54,113 nucleotides of DNA from Gemmatimonadota bacterium (GTDB taxonomy: Bacteria > Gemmatimonadota > Gemmatimonadetes > Gemmatimonadales > Gemmatimonadaceae). Within the stretch, counting starts at the first letter, position 1. The number at the start of each line of letters is the position of its first letter. Shown one piece after another: positions 15,428-21,995 of the stretch. The stretch covers positions 1 to 54,113 of the forward strand of contig JARIFA010000010.1 in the NCBI GenBank assembly GCA_031127075.1. Reading direction: 5' to 3'. Below the pieces are notes generated by a model. That model was not told the DNA's origin, did not search any database, and worked only from the letters and a program-made list of their open reading frames with translations. The translations under genes were made by a program, and so were the position numbers.

Positions 15428-16848
15428 GCGGGTGCGTAGCAGCCGACATGCAACGGCTCCGGGCGCGTGACCGCGTCCGTGATGGTGACGCGAAGTCCGA
15501 CGAGACGCATCGGCGGGACCTCGAGCAGGCGACGGTACCCGATGGTCGTCCCGCGCGACACGACATGCCAGCGGCCGTCGGCGGTGCGCCCCTCGAGCTG
15601 ATGCGCCGCGACCGCCTGTCCCAACGCGATCGGCTCCCGCAGGTCCACGATCCCGACCATCGCCGGGCGGGGCAGGTCGAGCTCCAGCACCGCGGTCGTA
15701 GCCCCGGTGGTGCGCCACCGCATCGTGCCACCCGCCGCGAGGTCATGCACGAAGCGCGCCTCGAGTCGCGCACGCATCGCGAGCAGGCTCGCGACGTCCC
15801 GCTCATGCAGGAGCCCACGACGGTCCGGCGGGACGTTGAGCAACAGCTTCGAGTTCCGCCCGACGGAGGAGAAGTAGAGCGAGACGAGATCGTCCGCGCT
15901 GCGCACGCGCGCGTCCTCGGCGGCATGGTAGAACCACCCCGGACGGATGGAGACGTCGGTCTCCCCGGGTCGCCAGACGGTCCCATCGCGATCGCCGTCC
16001 TGCAGGGAGCGCATCACCTCATCCCCCGTCATCCCGGGGACGGGGACGATGTCCGGGCGCACCGTCGACCAGTTCGTCGTGCCGGCGACGCCGCGTTCGT
16101 TGCCGATCCAGCGGATATCGGGCCCCGCATCGGAGAACATCACGGCCTCGGGCTGCAACCGGCGCACCAGGCCCCACGTCGCGGGCCAGTCATAGACCTG
16201 CCGTTTCCCGTTCGGGCCCTCGCCGTTCGCCCCGTCAAACCAGACCTCTTGGATCGGACCGTAGCGGGTGAGGAGCTCGGTGAGCTGCGCCTGATAGACG
16301 GCGTTGTACGCCGGGGTGTCGCCGTAGGTGGGGTGGTTCTGGTCCCAGGGCGAGAGGTAGAGCCCGGGCCGCAGCCCCTCCGCTCGACAGGCGTCGACGA
16401 ACTCACGGACGAGGTCTCCTTGCCCATCGCGCCACGGGCTCGACGCCACGGAGTGCGTGGTGGTGGCGGTCGGCCAGAGACAGAAGCCGTCGTGGTGTTT
16501 GGCGGTGAGGACCATCGCGCGGAACCCCGCCGCGCGCGCGGTGCGCGCCCACTGTCGGGCATCGAGGGCGGTCGGTGCGAAGAGCGCCGGCGATTCGCGC
16601 CCATCCCCCCACTCGCGGTCGGTGAAGGTGTTCACGCCAAAGTGGATGAACATCGCGAGTTCGTCCTGCTGCCAGCGGAGCTGCGCGGGGGTGGGGACGG
16701 GGCGACCCGCGAGGGGTGCCCGCGACGGCGGTGCCGGCCGGCCGCCGGCCCGTACGAGCCCAGGGGCGGCGGGCTCCGCGAGGAGGCGGCGGGCGCTCAG
16801 CGCGGCGAGGAGCCCGCCGGCGACGAAGGTGCGACGGTCGATGGACAT
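15424..16848 (-). CDS. Alpha-L-fucosidase-like glycoside hydrolase (GH29), Tat-exported
   Basis: A 474-residue protein with a twin-arginine signal (RRTFVAGGLLAAL), so it is exported folded. GH29 features are FIHFGVNTFTDREWGDG, LTAKHHDGFCLWPT, LYLSPWDQN and EVWFDGANGEGP, in which Asp205 is at the nucleophile position. A beta-rich C-terminal region (about 375-474) follows. It would release alpha-L-fucose, or a related sugar, from glycans. It diverges from a secreted hypothetical protein across a 49-base gap and is followed by an overlapping DinB gene. Exact sugar specificity is unproven. Confidence 0.9.
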   Translation of the reverse strand: MSIDRRTFVAGGLLAALSARRLLAEPAAPGLVRAGGRPAPPSRAPLAGRPVPTPAQLRWQQDELAMFIHFGVNTFTDREWGDGRESPALFAPTALDARQWARTARAAGFRAMVLTAKHHDGFCLWPTATTTHSVASSPWRDGQGDLVREFVDACRAEGLRPGLYLSPWDQNHPTYGDTPAYNAVYQAQLTELLTRYGPIQEVWFDGANGEGPNGKRQVYDWPATWGLVRRLQPEAVMFSDAGPDIRWIGNERGVAGTTNWSTVRPDIVPVPGMTGDEVMRSLQDGDRDGTVWRPGETDVSIRPGWFYHAAEDARVRSADDLVSLYFSSVGRNSKLLLNVPPDRRGLLHERDVASLLAMRARLEARFVHDLAAGGTMRWRTTGATTAVLELDLPRPAMVGIVDLREPIALGQAVAAHQLEGRTADGRWHVVSRGTTIGYRRLLEVPPMRLVGLRVTITDAVTRPEPLHVGCYAPA

Positions 16849-16857
16849 CGGTCCGCC

Positions 16858-16863
16858 TATTAT
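16858..16863. promoter_or_regulatory. TATTAT element in the fucosidase/secreted-protein divergent gap
   Basis: TATTAT is the only AT-rich hexamer in the 49-base gap. On the plus strand it is a -10-like box for the gene at 16898; on the minus strand overlapping CATAAT (16859-16864) ends ten bases before ATG 16848. The two promoters may overlap and exclude one another. Confidence 0.4.
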
Positions 16864-16885
16864 GGTTCGGGAACGCCCTCACCAT

Positions 16886-16891
16886 AAGGAG
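16886..16891 (+). promoter_or_regulatory. Shine-Dalgarno AAGGAG
   Basis: AAGGAG ends six bases before ATG 16898 and fixes this start for the secreted protein, against a longer open frame starting at 16457 that is antisense to the fucosidase gene. Confidence 0.75.
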
Positions 16892-16897
16892 ACCCCG

Positions 16898-17581
16898 ATG
16901 CGTCCCTACGTCCTCGCGAGCCTGCTCGTCGCCGCGCTCGCCCTCCCCACCGCCGCGCATGCGCAGGACGACGCGGACCGTTCCGTCGCCGACGGCGGCA
17001 TCAAGGTCGCCGGCTGGAAGGGCCGGATCGACCGGCGGGCGATCACACAGGGGAAGACGATCAACGACTCGCGCTTCGTCACCGAGGGGCGTGGCTTCCG
17101 TGCCTCGGTCGGGCCGGCGGGGATCTTCTGGAATCCGGCGAACACCGTCGCCGGGGACTACGAGGTGATGGGCACCTTCACCGAGCACAAGATGGCCGCG
17201 GCGCATCCGCACTCGTACGGCATCTTCATCGGCGGGCAGGGGCTCGAGTCGGATACCGAGTCGCTGATGTACTGCATCGTCTATGGGACCGGGAGCTACG
17301 CGATCAAGACGTTCCGCGGCGCGACGGTCTCGACGATCGTCGGCACGACGCCGCACCCCGCGATCAAGAAGGCCGATGCCACGACGGGGCAGGCGGTGAA
17401 CACCGTCGGCTGGCGCGTGCGCGGTGGGCAGGCGAGCTGCGTGGTGAATGGCCAGGTGGTGCGGACGCTCGAGCGTGCGCAGTTCGTGGCGGCGGATAAG
17501 CTGACGACCACGGACGGCAACTGGGGGATCCGGGCGACGCACAACGTCGAGTTCAGCGTCTCGGGGCTGATGAAGCACTAA
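16898..17581 (+). CDS. Secreted beta-sandwich-like hypothetical protein
   Basis: A 227-residue protein with a clear signal peptide (VLASLLVAALALPTAAHAQ). The mature part alternates short beta strands, including ASVGPAGIFWNPANTVAGDYEVMGTF, YGIFIGGQGLE and NWGIRATHNVEFSVSGLMKH, as in concanavalin-like or DUF1080-type folds that bind or cleave glycans. I see no certain catalytic residues. Its divergent neighbour is a fucosidase, which suggests a carbohydrate link, by inference only. A 15-bp hairpin follows the stop. Confidence 0.75.
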   Translation: MRPYVLASLLVAALALPTAAHAQDDADRSVADGGIKVAGWKGRIDRRAITQGKTINDSRFVTEGRGFRASVGPAGIFWNPANTVAGDYEVMGTFTEHKMAAAHPHSYGIFIGGQGLESDTESLMYCIVYGTGSYAIKTFRGATVSTIVGTTPHPAIKKADATTGQAVNTVGWRVRGGQASCVVNGQVVRTLERAQFVAADKLTTTDGNWGIRATHNVEFSVSGLMKH

Positions 17582-17636: not shown

Positions 17637-17666
17637 GTGCGCTTGCGGCCTGCGCGATCTGGCGGT

Positions 17667-17690
17667 ATAACCATATCGGCATACGGTTAT
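17667..17690. promoter_or_regulatory. 24-bp imperfect palindrome, candidate ArsR-family operator
   Basis: Half-sites ATAACCATAT and ATACGGTTAT flank a CGGC centre; the second half reverse-complements to ATAACCGTAT, differing at one position. It is the most AT-rich stretch near the operon and sits 35 bases before the first ATG (17726), where it would overlap the promoter. Winged-helix ArsR/SmtB repressors bind such 10-4-10 AT-rich palindromes, and the operon ends with an ArsR gene. Binding is inferred. Confidence 0.6.
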
Positions 17691-17725
17691 TCAACACCCT
17701 CCACCCCGCCGGAGCGCTCCTCCCG

Positions 17726-18667
17726 ATGCGACGTCTCCCCCTCGCGGCCCTCGCCCTCCTCGTCTCCGCCTGCGGCGGACGCGACGAGGCCGCCCCCGCC
17801 GCCCACGCCGGATCCGCCGTGGTCTTCACCGAGGCCGCCTGGCAGCCGAAGCGCGAGGCCGACATCCCCGCCGACTCGATGGGGGCCTCCATCAAGCGCG
17901 GGCTCTACCTCCTCCGCTTCACCCCGGAGAGCCTCCCCGCCTACGCGACCTCCAACCTGCGCTGCACGAGCTGCCACCAGGATGATGGCCTCGACCCCAA
18001 GGCGGCCCCCCTCACGGGCTCGCACGCCCGCTTCCCGAAGTACATGGCGCGCTCCGGCACCGTCATCGCCCTCGCCGACCGCGTGAACTACTGCTTCACC
18101 CGCTCCCTCGCCGGCAACGCGATCCCGGTCGGCAGCCGCGAGATGACCGACATCCTCGCCTACTTCGCCTTCATCTCGCAGGACGTCCCGGTCGGCACGA
18201 AGATCGCCGGCCACGACGGCCTGATCTCGATGCCCGACACCCTGGTCGGCGACATCGCCCGCGGCGAGGCGCTCTACACCGCGAAGACCTGCGTCACCTG
18301 TCACGGCGCCAACGGCGCCGGCGCCGGCCCGATCCCCGCCCTCTGGGGCCCGACGTCGTACTCGATCGGCGCCTCGATGGCCCGCCTCGAGCGCGCGGCG
18401 AGCTTCATCATGCACAACATGCCGCAGACGGCCCCGGGCTCCCTCACCCCGCAGGAGGCCTTCGACCTCTCGGCCTACATCAATTCGCATCCGCGTCCGG
18501 ACTCCCCGGGCAAGGAAGACGATTGGCCGATGGGTGGTGCGCCGACCGACGTCCCCTACGCGACCAAGGGGCACGCGGCGTTCAACCCGCCCGCCGTGCT
18601 CCCGCGTGCGAATCCGCGCGGCGCGGTCGTCCCGAATCCGCCGGTGATCGGCCGAGGCGCGCAGTGA
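17726..18667 (+). CDS. Dihaem cytochrome c lipoprotein, thiosulfate dehydrogenase (TsdA)-like
   Basis: A 313-residue lipoprotein (lipobox LVSAC, Cys16) with two c-type haem sites: CTSCH (80-84) and CVTCH (189-193). Between them, RVNYCFTRSLAG places Cys123 where TsdA-type enzymes carry a cysteine ligand to haem 1. MP at 232-233 is a likely distal ligand for haem 2. TsdA enzymes oxidise thiosulfate to tetrathionate, or do the reverse, in the periplasm. The stop overlaps the GTG of soxC (GTGA). ATG 17726 gives a proper signal peptide. It is the first gene of the sulfur operon; an electron-transfer role with SoxCD is the main alternative. Confidence 0.82.
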   Translation: MRRLPLAALALLVSACGGRDEAAPAAHAGSAVVFTEAAWQPKREADIPADSMGASIKRGLYLLRFTPESLPAYATSNLRCTSCHQDDGLDPKAAPLTGSHARFPKYMARSGTVIALADRVNYCFTRSLAGNAIPVGSREMTDILAYFAFISQDVPVGTKIAGHDGLISMPDTLVGDIARGEALYTAKTCVTCHGANGAGAGPIPALWGPTSYSIGASMARLERAASFIMHNMPQTAPGSLTPQEAFDLSAYINSHPRPDSPGKEDDWPMGGAPTDVPYATKGHAAFNPPAVLPRANPRGAVVPNPPVIGRGAQ

Positions 18668-19932
18668 GTCGCCGGCGTCCGACCGAGGGCGGTCCTGCCC
18701 TCTCCCGGCGCGCCCTCCTCACCGGCACCGCCGGCGCCCTGGGCGGCGCCGTGCTCGCCGGACTCCCCGGCGTCCTCGATGGGCAAGAGGCCGCCCCCGC
18801 GCGCCCCATCGTCCCGGAGGACGCCACCAAGCTACAGGGCGCGGCGACCTCGCCCCTCGGTGAGCGCTCGCCGTTCGTCACGGCCTCGCGCGCCCCATAC
18901 GGGGAGACGGTCGGTAGCTCACTGACGCCGCTCCAAGACCTCACTGGCGTCGTCACGCCCTCCGACCTCCACTTCGAGCGGCACCACGCCGGCATCCCGG
19001 CGCTCGACCCCGAGCGGCACACGCTGACGATCCACGGCCTCGTGGAACGCCCGCTCACCTTCTCCGTCGATGACCTCAAGCGGTTTCCGCAGACGGTCCG
19101 CACCTACTTCATCGAGTGCTCCGGCAACGGACGCGCGGCCTATCGGGAACCGAAGCCCGAGATGACGGCACAGAAAGTCTCGGGGATGCTCTCGACCTCG
19201 GAGTGGACGGGGGTGCCGCTCGCGACCCTCTTCCGCGAGGTCGGGGCGAAGCCCGAGGCGAAGTGGTTCCTCGCCGAGGGGGGTGATGCCTGCCTGATGA
19301 CGCGGTCCGTGCCGATGGCGAAGGCGTGGGACGACGCGATGGTCGTCTGGGCGCAGAACGGCGAGCCGCTGAGGCCGGCCCAAGGATATCCGATCCGTCT
19401 CCTCCTCCCGGGATGGGAGGGGAACATCAACGTGAAGTGGCTGCGCCGGCTCGAGCTCGGCGCCGCCCCGTGGATGACGCGATGGGAGACGGCGAAGTAC
19501 ACCGATCCGCGTCCTGACCACACGGCCGATATGTTCACCTTCGCGCAGCAGGCGAAGTCGATCATCACGAGCCCCTCACATCCGGGACGCATCGCGTCGC
19601 CGGGCTGGCACGCCGTCCACGGGCTCGCCTGGACCGGACGCGGCCGCATCACGAAGGTCGAGGTGAGCGTCGATGGCGGTGGGCGCTGGCACGAGGCGGA
19701 GCTCCTCGGCGAGGTGCGCCCGAAGGCACCGGTGCGCTTCCAGCACATGTGGGAGTGGCGCGGTGACGCGGCCACGCTCCTCTCCCGCGCGACCGACGAG
19801 ACCGGTGAGGTGCAGCCTACGCGTACCGCGCTCATCGCGACGCGTGGCATCGGCACCGACTACCACTTCAACCAGATCGTGGGGTGGCAGGTCGCGCGCG
19901 ACGGCGCCGTTACCTTCCACGGGGAGACCTGA
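18664..19932 (+). CDS. soxC: SoxC-like molybdopterin sulfane/sulfite dehydrogenase
   Basis: A 422-residue protein with a Tat signal (SRRALLTGTAGALGGAVLAG), as expected for a molybdoenzyme exported folded. The sulfite-oxidase core shows FIECSGNGRAAY with Cys152, the molybdenum ligand. SoxC-type segments follow: SEWTGVPLATLFREVG, GEPLRPAQGYPIRLLLPGWEGNINVKWLRRLEL, then a C-terminal dimerisation domain (GLAWTGRGRITKVEVSVDGGGRW). SoxC works with cytochrome SoxD to oxidise the sulfane sulfur on SoxY. The GTG at 18664 overlaps the previous TGA, and soxD follows four bases later. No soxY is seen nearby, so a free sulfite substrate is possible. Confidence 0.9.
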   Translation: MSRRRPTEGGPALSRRALLTGTAGALGGAVLAGLPGVLDGQEAAPARPIVPEDATKLQGAATSPLGERSPFVTASRAPYGETVGSSLTPLQDLTGVVTPSDLHFERHHAGIPALDPERHTLTIHGLVERPLTFSVDDLKRFPQTVRTYFIECSGNGRAAYREPKPEMTAQKVSGMLSTSEWTGVPLATLFREVGAKPEAKWFLAEGGDACLMTRSVPMAKAWDDAMVVWAQNGEPLRPAQGYPIRLLLPGWEGNINVKWLRRLELGAAPWMTRWETAKYTDPRPDHTADMFTFAQQAKSIITSPSHPGRIASPGWHAVHGLAWTGRGRITKVEVSVDGGGRWHEAELLGEVRPKAPVRFQHMWEWRGDAATLLSRATDETGEVQPTRTALIATRGIGTDYHFNQIVGWQVARDGAVTFHGET

Positions 19933-19935
19933 GCG

Positions 19936-20526
19936 ATGCGTCGTCTCTTTCCCCTCACGCTCCTCGCCGCACTCGTCGCCTGTCGTGGCGGTGATGGCCC
20001 GAGCGGGTCCGACACGGCGGACGCCGGCACACGCTACGGCCTCGGCCGCCCCGCCGACGCACAGTTCGTTGCGCGCCTCGATACCGACATCGATCCCTCG
20101 GGCGCGGCGCTCCCCGCCGGCCGCGGCACCGCCGCCGAAGGGGCGGTGCTCTATGCCGCGCAGTGTGCGATGTGTCATGGCGCAGAAGGCCTCGGGATGC
20201 CCCCGGCCTTCCCGCGGCTCCTCGGCCGTGATCCGAAGGCCGAGGACTTCACCTTCGCGTCGGACCACAAGCTGCCGAAGACCATCGGGAACTACTGGCC
20301 GTACGCGACCACGCTCTTCGACTACATCCGTCGAGCGATGCCCCTGACGGCGCCGGGCTCGCTGACCGACGATCAAGTCTATGCGCTCACCGCGTACCTC
20401 CTCGCCGCCGACGGCGTGATCCCGAAGGAGACCACCCTCGACGCCGCGGCGCTCGCGGCCGTGAAGATGCCGTACACCGATCGATTCATCTGGTCCGCCG
20501 AAGCGGGCAGCCAGGACCGCGACTGA
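19936..20526 (+). CDS. soxD: SoxD-like cytochrome c lipoprotein
   Basis: A 196-residue lipoprotein (lipobox LVAC, Cys16). It matches SoxD in order: GLGRPADAQFVARLDTDIDPSG, AALPAGRGTAAEGAVLYAAQ, haem site CAMCH (77-81), KTIGNYWPYATTLFDYIRRAMP with Met135 as likely distal ligand, and DDQVYALTAYLL. It would take electrons from the SoxC molybdenum centre. It carries one haem site, whereas some SoxD proteins have two. The start is four bases after soxC, the classical soxCD order. Confidence 0.9.
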   Translation: MRRLFPLTLLAALVACRGGDGPSGSDTADAGTRYGLGRPADAQFVARLDTDIDPSGAALPAGRGTAAEGAVLYAAQCAMCHGAEGLGMPPAFPRLLGRDPKAEDFTFASDHKLPKTIGNYWPYATTLFDYIRRAMPLTAPGSLTDDQVYALTAYLLAADGVIPKETTLDAAALAAVKMPYTDRFIWSAEAGSQDRD

Positions 20527-20548
20527 CTCTCACCACCCGACACAGCAG

Positions 20549-21079
20549 ATGACCACCACCATCGACTCCTCGACCGGCAAGACCCCATGGGTCTTCTACG
20601 GCGTCCTCTTCGGGATCCTCGGCACCCTCTCGATCCTCGCGTGGGGGCCGATCGGTGTCTCCGGCACCTACCCGCGAGTGATCGGCGAGCTGCTCACGCT
20701 GGTCGTCCCTGACTACGCCGCCGGGAACCCATACCTGCAGAAGATGGGACATCTCTTCGCCAAGACGGAGACCTATCTCGTGATCGGGCTCCTCCTCGGC
20801 GGCTTCCTCGGCGCGCGACTCAACAAGGAGAAGGCGCCGGCCTGTGAGATGATCCATCCCTCGGAGAAGACGACGGGGCGCCGCTACCGCGACGCCTTCA
20901 TCGGCGGCTTCCTGATCGTCTTCGGGGCGCGGATCGCCGGCGGCTGCACCAGCGGGCACATCATCTCCGGGATCACGCAGCTCTCCGTGAGCGGGTTCAT
21001 CTTCGCGGCCGGCGTCTTCGCGACCGGCATCCTCACCGCCAAGACCCTCAAGCGCCGCCATGTCGCGGCGGAGGCCTGA
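20549..21079 (+). CDS. YeeE/YedE family permease, first half
   Basis: A 176-residue membrane protein with four or so helices, carrying the sulfur-transport signature GARIAGGCTSGHIISGITQLS with a conserved cysteine. In TsuA-type proteins such cysteines pass thiosulfate through the membrane. A second half follows two bases after the stop, so together the two genes resemble the paired small permeases found beside sulfide or persulfide regulators. It probably moves thiosulfate or another sulfur species between periplasm and cytoplasm; the direction is unknown. Confidence 0.88.
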   Translation: MTTTIDSSTGKTPWVFYGVLFGILGTLSILAWGPIGVSGTYPRVIGELLTLVVPDYAAGNPYLQKMGHLFAKTETYLVIGLLLGGFLGARLNKEKAPACEMIHPSEKTTGRRYRDAFIGGFLIVFGARIAGGCTSGHIISGITQLSVSGFIFAAGVFATGILTAKTLKRRHVAAEA

Positions 21080-21081
21080 CC

Positions 21082-21621
21082 ATGACCGCCTTCTACGGCC
21101 TCCTCATCGGCGTCGCGATGGGCTTCTTCATCCAGCGCGTCCGCGCCTCCAGCCCCGGGATGATCGTCCGCAACCTCCGACTCGAGAACCTCTCCGTCAT
21201 CAAGTTCATGGCGCTCACGATGGCGGTGGGGATGGTGCTCGTGTACGGCCTCAACCTCGTCATCCCGTCGGCGATGCACTTCGACGTGAAGCCGACCTAC
21301 GTCCTCGGGGTGCTCCTCGGCGGCCTCGTCTTCGGCGTCGGGTTCGGCATCGGTGGGTACTGCCCCGGCACTTCGGTGGTCGGCATCGGCGAGGGCCGGA
21401 AGGACGCCATCGTCGCGATGCTCGGTGGCGTCGTCGGCGCGCTCGTCTTCACGCTCGTCTACACGACGCTGATCGCGCCGATCGTGAAGGTGGCGGACCT
21501 CGGCAAGATCACGCTCGCCGACGTGACCCACGTCTCGCCCTTCGTGCTCGCGGTGGTCGTCTCGGCCGTCTTCCTCGTGGTGATCAAGCTCCTCCCGACC
21601 GAGGTCGGCGCGAAGCGATGA
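21082..21621 (+). CDS. YeeE/YedE family permease, second half
   Basis: A 179-residue membrane protein of the same family as its neighbour. Its signature GVGFGIGGYCPGTSVVGIGEG contains the conserved cysteine, preceded by VLGVLLGGLVFG and followed by three further hydrophobic segments. It starts two bases after the first half and its TGA overlaps the ATG of the ArsR gene (ATGA). The two halves probably work as one transporter unit. Confidence 0.88.
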   Translation: MTAFYGLLIGVAMGFFIQRVRASSPGMIVRNLRLENLSVIKFMALTMAVGMVLVYGLNLVIPSAMHFDVKPTYVLGVLLGGLVFGVGFGIGGYCPGTSVVGIGEGRKDAIVAMLGGVVGALVFTLVYTTLIAPIVKVADLGKITLADVTHVSPFVLAVVVSAVFLVVIKLLPTEVGAKR

Positions 21622-21995
21622 GCACTCGCCGACCGGTGCGTCACGCCACGACGGCGCGACGCACTCCCACCCCAGCGCTCCTCGAACTCGTCGCCGGCCG
21701 CTTTCGCGCCCTGGGTGAGCCCGCGCGCCTCGGCATCCTCCACGCCCTGGAGCACGGCCCGCTGAGTGTCACGGCGCTCGTGGAGCGCACGGGATTGGGT
21801 CAGGCCAACCTCTCGAAGCACCTGCAGCAGCTGCATGCGGCGGGCTTCGTGTCGCGATCCCGGCGGGGGATGTTCGTCGACTATGCCCTCGCGGATGCGG
21901 ACGTCCTGCGGCTCTGCGAGCTGATGTGCGGGCGACTCGACGACGATCTCGCCGCGACACAGGCGGTGATGGCACCGCAGCGGCGGAGCGCCTAG
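21618..21995 (+). CDS. ArsR-family transcriptional regulator
   Basis: A 125-residue winged-helix protein: FRALGEPARLGILHAL (helix 1-2), GPLSVTALVERTGLGQANLSKHLQQL (recognition helix) and the wing AAGFVSRSRRGMFVDYALA. Its only two cysteines lie together in the last helix (LCELMC). The persulfide sensors BigR/SqrR instead use one cysteine in an earlier helix and one at the end, so the sensing chemistry may differ. ATG 21618 overlaps the permease stop. It probably represses its own operon through the palindrome at 17667-17690. Its TAG shares CTAG with the convergent DDAH stop. Confidence 0.9.
   Translation: MSTRRPVRHATTARRTPTPALLELVAGRFRALGEPARLGILHALEHGPLSVTALVERTGLGQANLSKHLQQLHAAGFVSRSRRGMFVDYALADADVLRLCELMCGRLDDDLAATQAVMAPQRRSA

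Follow-up and report, generated by a model that had tools for sequence, protein, structure and literature searches.

A conserved operon joining SoxCD to a TsdA-type cytochrome, split YeeE permeases and an ArsR regulator in Gemmatimonadota: a candidate carrier-free unit for sulfur oxyanions

SoxCD is thought to need a carrier protein, and its occurrence in metagenomes is often taken as a mark of the Sox pathway of thiosulfate oxidation. In 2019, four Gemmatimonadetes species were reported to lack all Sox enzymes apart from soxCD, the role of which was called unclear (PMC6704655); a complete sox system was described for none of the Gemmatimonadota genomes studied elsewhere (PMC10581226). According to a report on Erythrobacter flavus, TsdA and SoxB together replace the classical Sox route in this organism (PMC7608252). 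Here, we analyzed a stretch of 54,113 nucleotides (contig JARIFA010000010.1, positions 1 to 54,113, hereafter the window) from a Gemmatimonadota bacterium of the Gemmatimonadaceae, in which soxC and soxD form one operon with the genes of a TsdA-type dihaem cytochrome, two YeeE-type half permeases (PmpA and PmpB) and an ArsR-family regulator. To our reading of its sequence, there is about an even chance that this operon encodes an inducible unit that works without a carrier: SoxCD would act as a sulfite dehydrogenase next to a thiosulfate/tetrathionate enzyme, and both would oxidise free sulfur oxyanions in the periplasm. Among the papers listed from the open-licence literature, judged by titles and abstract openings, we found no description of a TsdA-SoxCD-PmpAB-ArsR operon.

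The six genes, which the preliminary description had presented as a compact operon, are indeed found at this place: They follow one another on the + strand from 17726 to 21995 in the order TsdA-type cytochrome, soxC, soxD, pmpA, pmpB and arsR and overlap or nearly touch, the successive junctions being a 4-bp overlap (GTGA), gaps of 3, 22 and 2 bp and a further 4-bp overlap (ATGA). The start at 17667 given in that description is not that of a gene but the first base of a putative operator; the first ATG lies at 17726.

The window genome is a 2.2-Mb draft in 98 contigs (81.5% complete), and its nine genus mates are listed as 95–100% complete. Beyond the genus, we drew on a phylum sample of 200 genomes, 142 of which give a SoxC match at E 1e-3 if distant sulfite oxidases are included. 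From this sample 60 stretches were chosen as best SoxC matches, selected weaker ones and SoxY loci, so that shares among them are not phylum frequencies; 50 have a SoxC above 230 bits and the remaining ten comprise nine SoxY loci and one distant sulfite oxidase. The nearest named relatives by SoxC are the best 80 of 563, with stretches of 3.2–19.3 kb; four contigs that lack a TsdA-type gene occur in both sets. The closest of the named records is the Gemmatimonadetes metagenome-assembled genome K_Offshore_40m, whose SoxC is 96% identical. We call a soxC locus linked if its strand carries a TsdA-type gene no more than 300 bp away.

By this definition the gene order recurs among relatives, a comparison which the preliminary description had proposed: 32 distinct SoxC loci (23 phylum stretches, eight named records and the window) adjoin a TsdA-type gene, 17 of them also have pmpAB and 15 also arsR. 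Among the 50 SoxC loci of the phylum set, a TsdA-type gene is present in 23, soxD in 47, pmpAB in 13, arsR in 12 and a sox carrier gene in none; the corresponding figures for the 80 named loci are eight, 79, three, two and none, and all eight TsdA-linked named records are Gemmatimonadota. SoxD is encoded in 30 of the 32 linked loci, and the other two (L040, L062) stop at a contig edge. In these sets pmpAB is restricted to linked loci: It occurs in 17/32 of them versus 0/27 unlinked loci from whole genomes and 0/72 unlinked named loci, four of the 72 contigs being also among the 27. Within the genus, soxC is found in eight of ten genomes and has the TsdA-type gene beside it in all eight (seven of the nine genus mates), while the two genomes without soxC hold only a distant TsdA paralogue. 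Across 31 loci, the pairwise distances of the TsdA-type protein and of SoxC correlate (r 0.76; none of 2000 permutations reached this value). This fits inheritance as a single unit, although a common history of the species also gives such a correlation. A chance adjacency of the six genes is ruled out by the conserved order across loci. Outside the phylum, TsdA-type matches occur in 11 of 149 Acidobacteriota genomes (E 1e-20), with no SoxC within about 1.5 kb on either side.

The preliminary description had further stated that SoxYZ is lacking in the window, and this holds beyond it: SoxY was found in 0/10 genus genomes, the window's own included, and in 11 of the 200 genomes of the phylum sample. 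No SoxB exceeded the curated cut-off in any of these 200 genomes or in the window genome, while all seven Alphaproteobacteria with a sox-type SoxC that served as a positive control passed it. SoxZ gave no match in the window genome in a search made without a positive control on a genome that is 81.5% complete. The suggested search of the full genome for soxXYZAB hence covered SoxY, SoxB and SoxZ and found none of them; no family survey was made for SoxA and SoxX. Owing to the incompleteness of the window genome, the argument for carrier absence rests on the nine genus mates. The possibility that a carrier merely lies outside the window was rejected on the basis of the genome-wide searches for SoxY and SoxB. 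What did not stand is the idea that carrier absence is special to this operon, as it is common for SoxCD to be encoded apart from sox genes: None of the 80 nearest named relatives has carrier genes in its stretch, as tested with single Indioceanicola queries that matched as expected in L084-L092 (SoxY, SoxZ) and in L100, and a whole-genome search for SoxY in 49 genomes of these relatives gave no match in 42 and a match in seven. Because SoxCD is thus found without a SoxY match in 42/49 genomes, its use as a mark of the Sox pathway is unsafe. SoxYZ pairs do exist in Gemmatimonadota-type genomes (L084-L092), though a SoxB over the cut-off was seen in none of the 200.

The molybdenum subunit SoxC (18664..19932, + strand) passes the SoxC equivalog model NCBIfam TIGR04555 with 492.9 bits (cut-off 420) and carries a twin-arginine-like signal as judged by eye. 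The monohaem c cytochrome SoxD (19936..20526, + strand; haem motif C77xxCH, candidate ligand M135, lipoprotein cysteine C16 by eye) reaches no NCBIfam cut-off and matches Paracoccus SoxD, so that both earlier gene identities are borne out. An assignment of SoxC as SorA or SorT was rejected, since its scores of 135.6 and 143.6 bits, respectively, are far below the curated cut-offs of 600 and 570 bits. In the numbering of chicken sulfite oxidase, the equivalents of R138, C185, R190 and Y322 are kept in all 32 linked SoxC proteins and that of R450 in 31 (one gap); in the window protein, C152 is the molybdenum ligand, accompanied by R106, R157, W181, Y279 and R394. The arginine at position 190 binds sulfite in sulfite oxidases. 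It is conserved in 32/32 linked SoxC proteins, whereas the seven sox-adjacent SoxC proteins and that of Paracoccus have glycine. The W204 equivalent is a tryptophan in 27/32 linked SoxC (two Y, one F, two unread), in 98 of 103 distinct other SoxC and in one of the seven sox-adjacent ones, with W counted by the motif after the Cys loop because this column was misplaced in the MAFFT alignment. A quick tree was built from 96 SoxC rows; it included 55 of 107 other SoxC (103 distinct), drawn at random from those longer than 330 residues, and omitted the chicken enzyme. One set (SH-aLRT 96) unites L230, the plasmid-borne SoxC of L101 and Paracoccus SoxC with the sox-adjacent proteins. The window SoxC lies outside it in a second set of 39 (SH-aLRT 99), which comprises the 32 linked proteins and seven others, five of which keep the arginine. 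The remaining two of these, L049 (genome G074) and L110, belong to the linked set by their SoxC, but the TsdA-type gene beside it has been lost, as has the arginine at the R190 equivalent. Taken together, the SoxC active site points to free sulfite as the substrate, though not decisively.

The first gene of the operon (17726..18667, + strand) encodes a dihaem c cytochrome with haem motifs at 80 and 189 and, by eye, a lipoprotein cysteine at C16. We did not find it placed outside the TsdA group, which the preliminary description had named as its refutation: A. vinosum TsdA is its best solved match (2e-47), a SoxA/TsdA-type domain and a c domain are present, PF21342 is matched with 48.4 bits (cut-off 27), and C123 and the methionine of an NMP motif (233) correspond to the TsdA haem ligands. 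SoxA was rejected as an identity with 43.6 bits against a cut-off of 110. The haem-ligating cysteine and methionine and the neighbouring arginine and serine, which in TsdA we take to be C96, M209, R99 and S100, have equivalents in 32/32 linked proteins. In all 32, an asparagine replaces the A. vinosum lysine next to the haem-2 methionine; of the 28 TsdA rows without linkage to soxC, 15 show the same asparagine, two genes being counted twice. TsdA of C. jejuni, described as a physiological tetrathionate reductase, has an asparagine at this site as well, and the exchange of this Asn254 for lysine reportedly brought no adaptation to thiosulfate oxidation (PMC5146829). A C-terminal extension is common to the SoxC-linked TsdA-type proteins; relatives whose examined stretches contain no SoxC (L204, L206, L207, L209; in a shorter form L210 and L211) carry it too. 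Away from soxC, tandem pairs of TsdA-type paralogues were observed in L251 and L253 (G031, G065) and in G115.

The two half permeases correspond to the C-terminal half (PmpA-type, 20549..21079, + strand) and the N-terminal half (PmpB-type, 21082..21621, + strand) of YeeE/TsuA; C133 of the former is conserved in 17/17 and C94 of the latter in 16/17 proteins (one gap). In the ArsR/SmtB-family regulator (21618..21995, + strand), C100 and C104 of a CxxxC motif are the sole conserved cysteines (15/15), and the BigR model is matched with 34.8 bits at a cut-off of 155. A literature search for the regulator name TsoR turned up nothing relevant. Upstream of the operon lies a palindromic putative operator (ATAACCATATCGGCATACGGTTAT, 17667..17690, no strand; 18 of 24 positions equal its own reverse complement), with 35 bp between its end and the first ATG. 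It is overlapped by the second hexamer of a promoter-like pair seen by eye on the + strand (TTGCGG, 17-bp spacer, TATAAC; 17643..17671); a stricter automatic promoter scan called no promoter.

A degenerate form of this operator pattern occurs once in the 2.2-Mb window genome, at 17667-17690. In the examined stretches (4.17 million bases, both strands) it occurs 15 times, 14 times before a TsdA-type gene, two of these being both strands of the window's own site, and once elsewhere in L048. We also scored each locus with a matrix built from 18 sites, leaving out its own site: In 15/15 arsR-bearing loci the top match lies before the TsdA-type gene (20.5–35.5 bits), a test that is not fully independent since sites were first picked by likeness to that of the window and relatives' sites stayed in the matrix. 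None of the 11 linked loci in which no arsR was seen has a site, with nothing above 12.2 bits, although their stretches span 2.1–9.0 kb after soxC and an arsR further off is possible. The stretch of the genus mate L044 is without pmpAB, arsR and operator site. Scores of 17.8–30.6 bits were obtained for five loci that a contig end truncates (L039, L040, L053, L062, L103), and L104 starts inside the gene. The predicted induction of the operon by reactive sulfur is plausible; the ArsR, however, is without the spaced cysteine pair of SoxR, SqrR and BigR and has its CxxxC pair instead.

We infer from sequence the following scheme, which extends to substrates, export, anchoring, electron flow, inducing signal and repression as well as to the direction of the TsdA-type reaction: Exported SoxC and membrane-anchored SoxD would form a sulfite dehydrogenase whose electrons enter the respiratory chain, and the likewise anchored TsdA-type cytochrome would interconvert thiosulfate and tetrathionate. 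PmpAB may import reduced sulfur species into the cytoplasm, both for use and as a signal. ArsR would occupy the operator over the promoter and be released once its CxxxC pair is modified. The scheme is also in line with the river-isolate plasmid NZ_CP093017.1 (L101), where soxC and a cytochrome c gene share one run with genes for a sulfurtransferase, a sulfate permease and two TauD-type dioxygenases; this neighbourhood would suit the release of sulfite, and no sox carrier gene is annotated in it. A carrier-free unit for thiosulfate or sulfite oxidation had been proposed from the outset; the identities of SoxC, SoxD and the TsdA-type protein and the lack of SoxY and SoxB matches in the genus support it in part, but carrier absence as such does not set it apart.

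Several observations weigh against this scheme. The residue equivalent to R190 is mixed in the 103 distinct other SoxC proteins, whose genes have no sox genes adjacent (30 R, 38 G), a set that includes L226 and L230, whose genomes do have SoxB. The SoxC of plasmid L101 has glycine at this position and groups with the sox-adjacent set. As a general mark of carrier-free SoxC, the arginine therefore fails, and free sulfite may be a substrate of enzymes with glycine as well. The nearest solved ArsR is the metal sensor NmtR. A second operator-like site is present in L048 (12014), L050 (725-733), L051 (9170) and L105 (14322), in each case between arsR and an efflux operon of TolC/HlyD/RND type, assigned by Pfam on single examples, which hints at a wider or different signal. 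Moreover, the literature accessible to us yielded no biochemistry for this clade.

The NmtR likeness and the second sites beside the efflux operon, together with the dedicated operator-like site and ArsR, would also suit a detoxification module, in which a toxic agent, whether sulfite, some other electrophile or a metal, triggers a stress response through the CxxxC pair and energy gain is secondary. We consider this reading unlikely, as the available part of the window genome has a single site and no second target was found there, and as no arsR was seen in 11/32 linked loci, so that a large part of the module persists in its absence. It is rather unlikely, too, that SoxCD and the TsdA-type cytochrome are joined in a single periplasmic complex, with electrons or cysteine-bound sulfur handed directly from one to the other and sulfite or sulfane oxidation coupled to thiosulfate/tetrathionate conversion; here, the cytochrome would replace the SoxYZ carrier and the operon would represent a second kind of Sox system, one without a carrier.

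Two further alternatives were considered. In an internal redox circuit, SoxCD would hand the electrons of sulfite to the TsdA-type cytochrome, which would reduce tetrathionate to thiosulfate and thereby clear sulfite without an oxidase. The asparagine shared with the C. jejuni reductase, the common C-terminal extension and a potential of +198 mV given for the thiosulfate/tetrathionate couple (PMC9562282) are compatible with such a circuit, but the asparagine is also present in unlinked TsdA rows, the Asn254 exchange had no adaptive effect, and SoxD may suffice as an outlet, as where soxCD has no TsdA-type gene beside it, which makes the circuit quite improbable. Alternatively, SoxCD might retain its Sox chemistry and oxidise sulfane sulfur carried by a different thiol, such as a small thiol or the cysteine that ligates a haem in the TsdA-type protein. 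SoxC passes its model and SoxD pairs with it, the cysteine is kept in 32/32 proteins, and TsdA is reported to react via a cysteine S-thiosulfonate intermediate (PMC4423706); however, no SoxB over the cut-off is there to make the sulfane substrate, and the active site has the sulfite oxidase arginine that is missing in 7/7 sox-adjacent SoxC. We hold this option, too, to be quite improbable.

Some neighbouring genes are recorded here in their own right. Downstream of the operon, a convergent dimethylargininase-like gene overlaps the end of arsR by 4 bp. The gene upstream (16793-17581), which has no Pfam or NCBIfam match at E 0.01, also precedes the operon in L039, L040, L042 and L044. In L048, L050, L054 and L105, a gene on the opposite strand between pmpB and arsR encodes a FadL/OMPP1-type outer membrane protein, assigned by a Pfam match for L105 and by likeness for the other three; beside it stands a second gene, without a Pfam match in L105. 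In L058, a TolC/HlyD/RND-type efflux operon directly follows SoxC-SoxD.

Among known systems, SoxC and SoxD have the SoxCD complex of the Paracoccus Sox system (PDB 2xts) as their best solved matches (E 8.5e-91 and E 4.5e-24) and share the adjacency of the two genes; they differ in that neither SoxY nor SoxB was found in the genus, and in having R and W where Paracoccus SoxC has G and Y at the R190 and W204 equivalents. The TsdA-type protein keeps the haem ligands and neighbouring residues of TsdA, but extends at its C-terminus about 50 residues past the part of the A. vinosum protein used for comparison, and its gene adjoins soxCD. As described for the split YeeE permeases PmpAB and for SoxT (PMC11582611), the permease consists of two halves with a conserved cysteine in each; here, the pair is part of one operon with TsdA-type and soxCD genes. 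Like the sulfane-sulfur repressors SoxR, SqrR and BigR, the regulator belongs to the ArsR family and lies near sulfur-oxidation genes and YeeE-type permeases, but in place of the spaced Cys50/Cys116 pair reported for SoxR (PMC10451225) it has C100xxxC104. The pathway of E. flavus likewise pairs TsdA with one Sox enzyme instead of the classical route (PMC7608252), its partner being SoxB, whereas here it is SoxCD and no SoxB over the cut-off was found. The lone soxCD genes of Gemmatimonadetes also occur without another Sox enzyme, and the available part of the report on them mentions neither a TsdA-type gene linked to them nor PmpAB, a regulator or an operator (PMC6704655). To the lone SoxCD of Gemmatimonadota, the operon described here adds a set of partners, a regulator, a putative operator and a prediction at the level of single residues.

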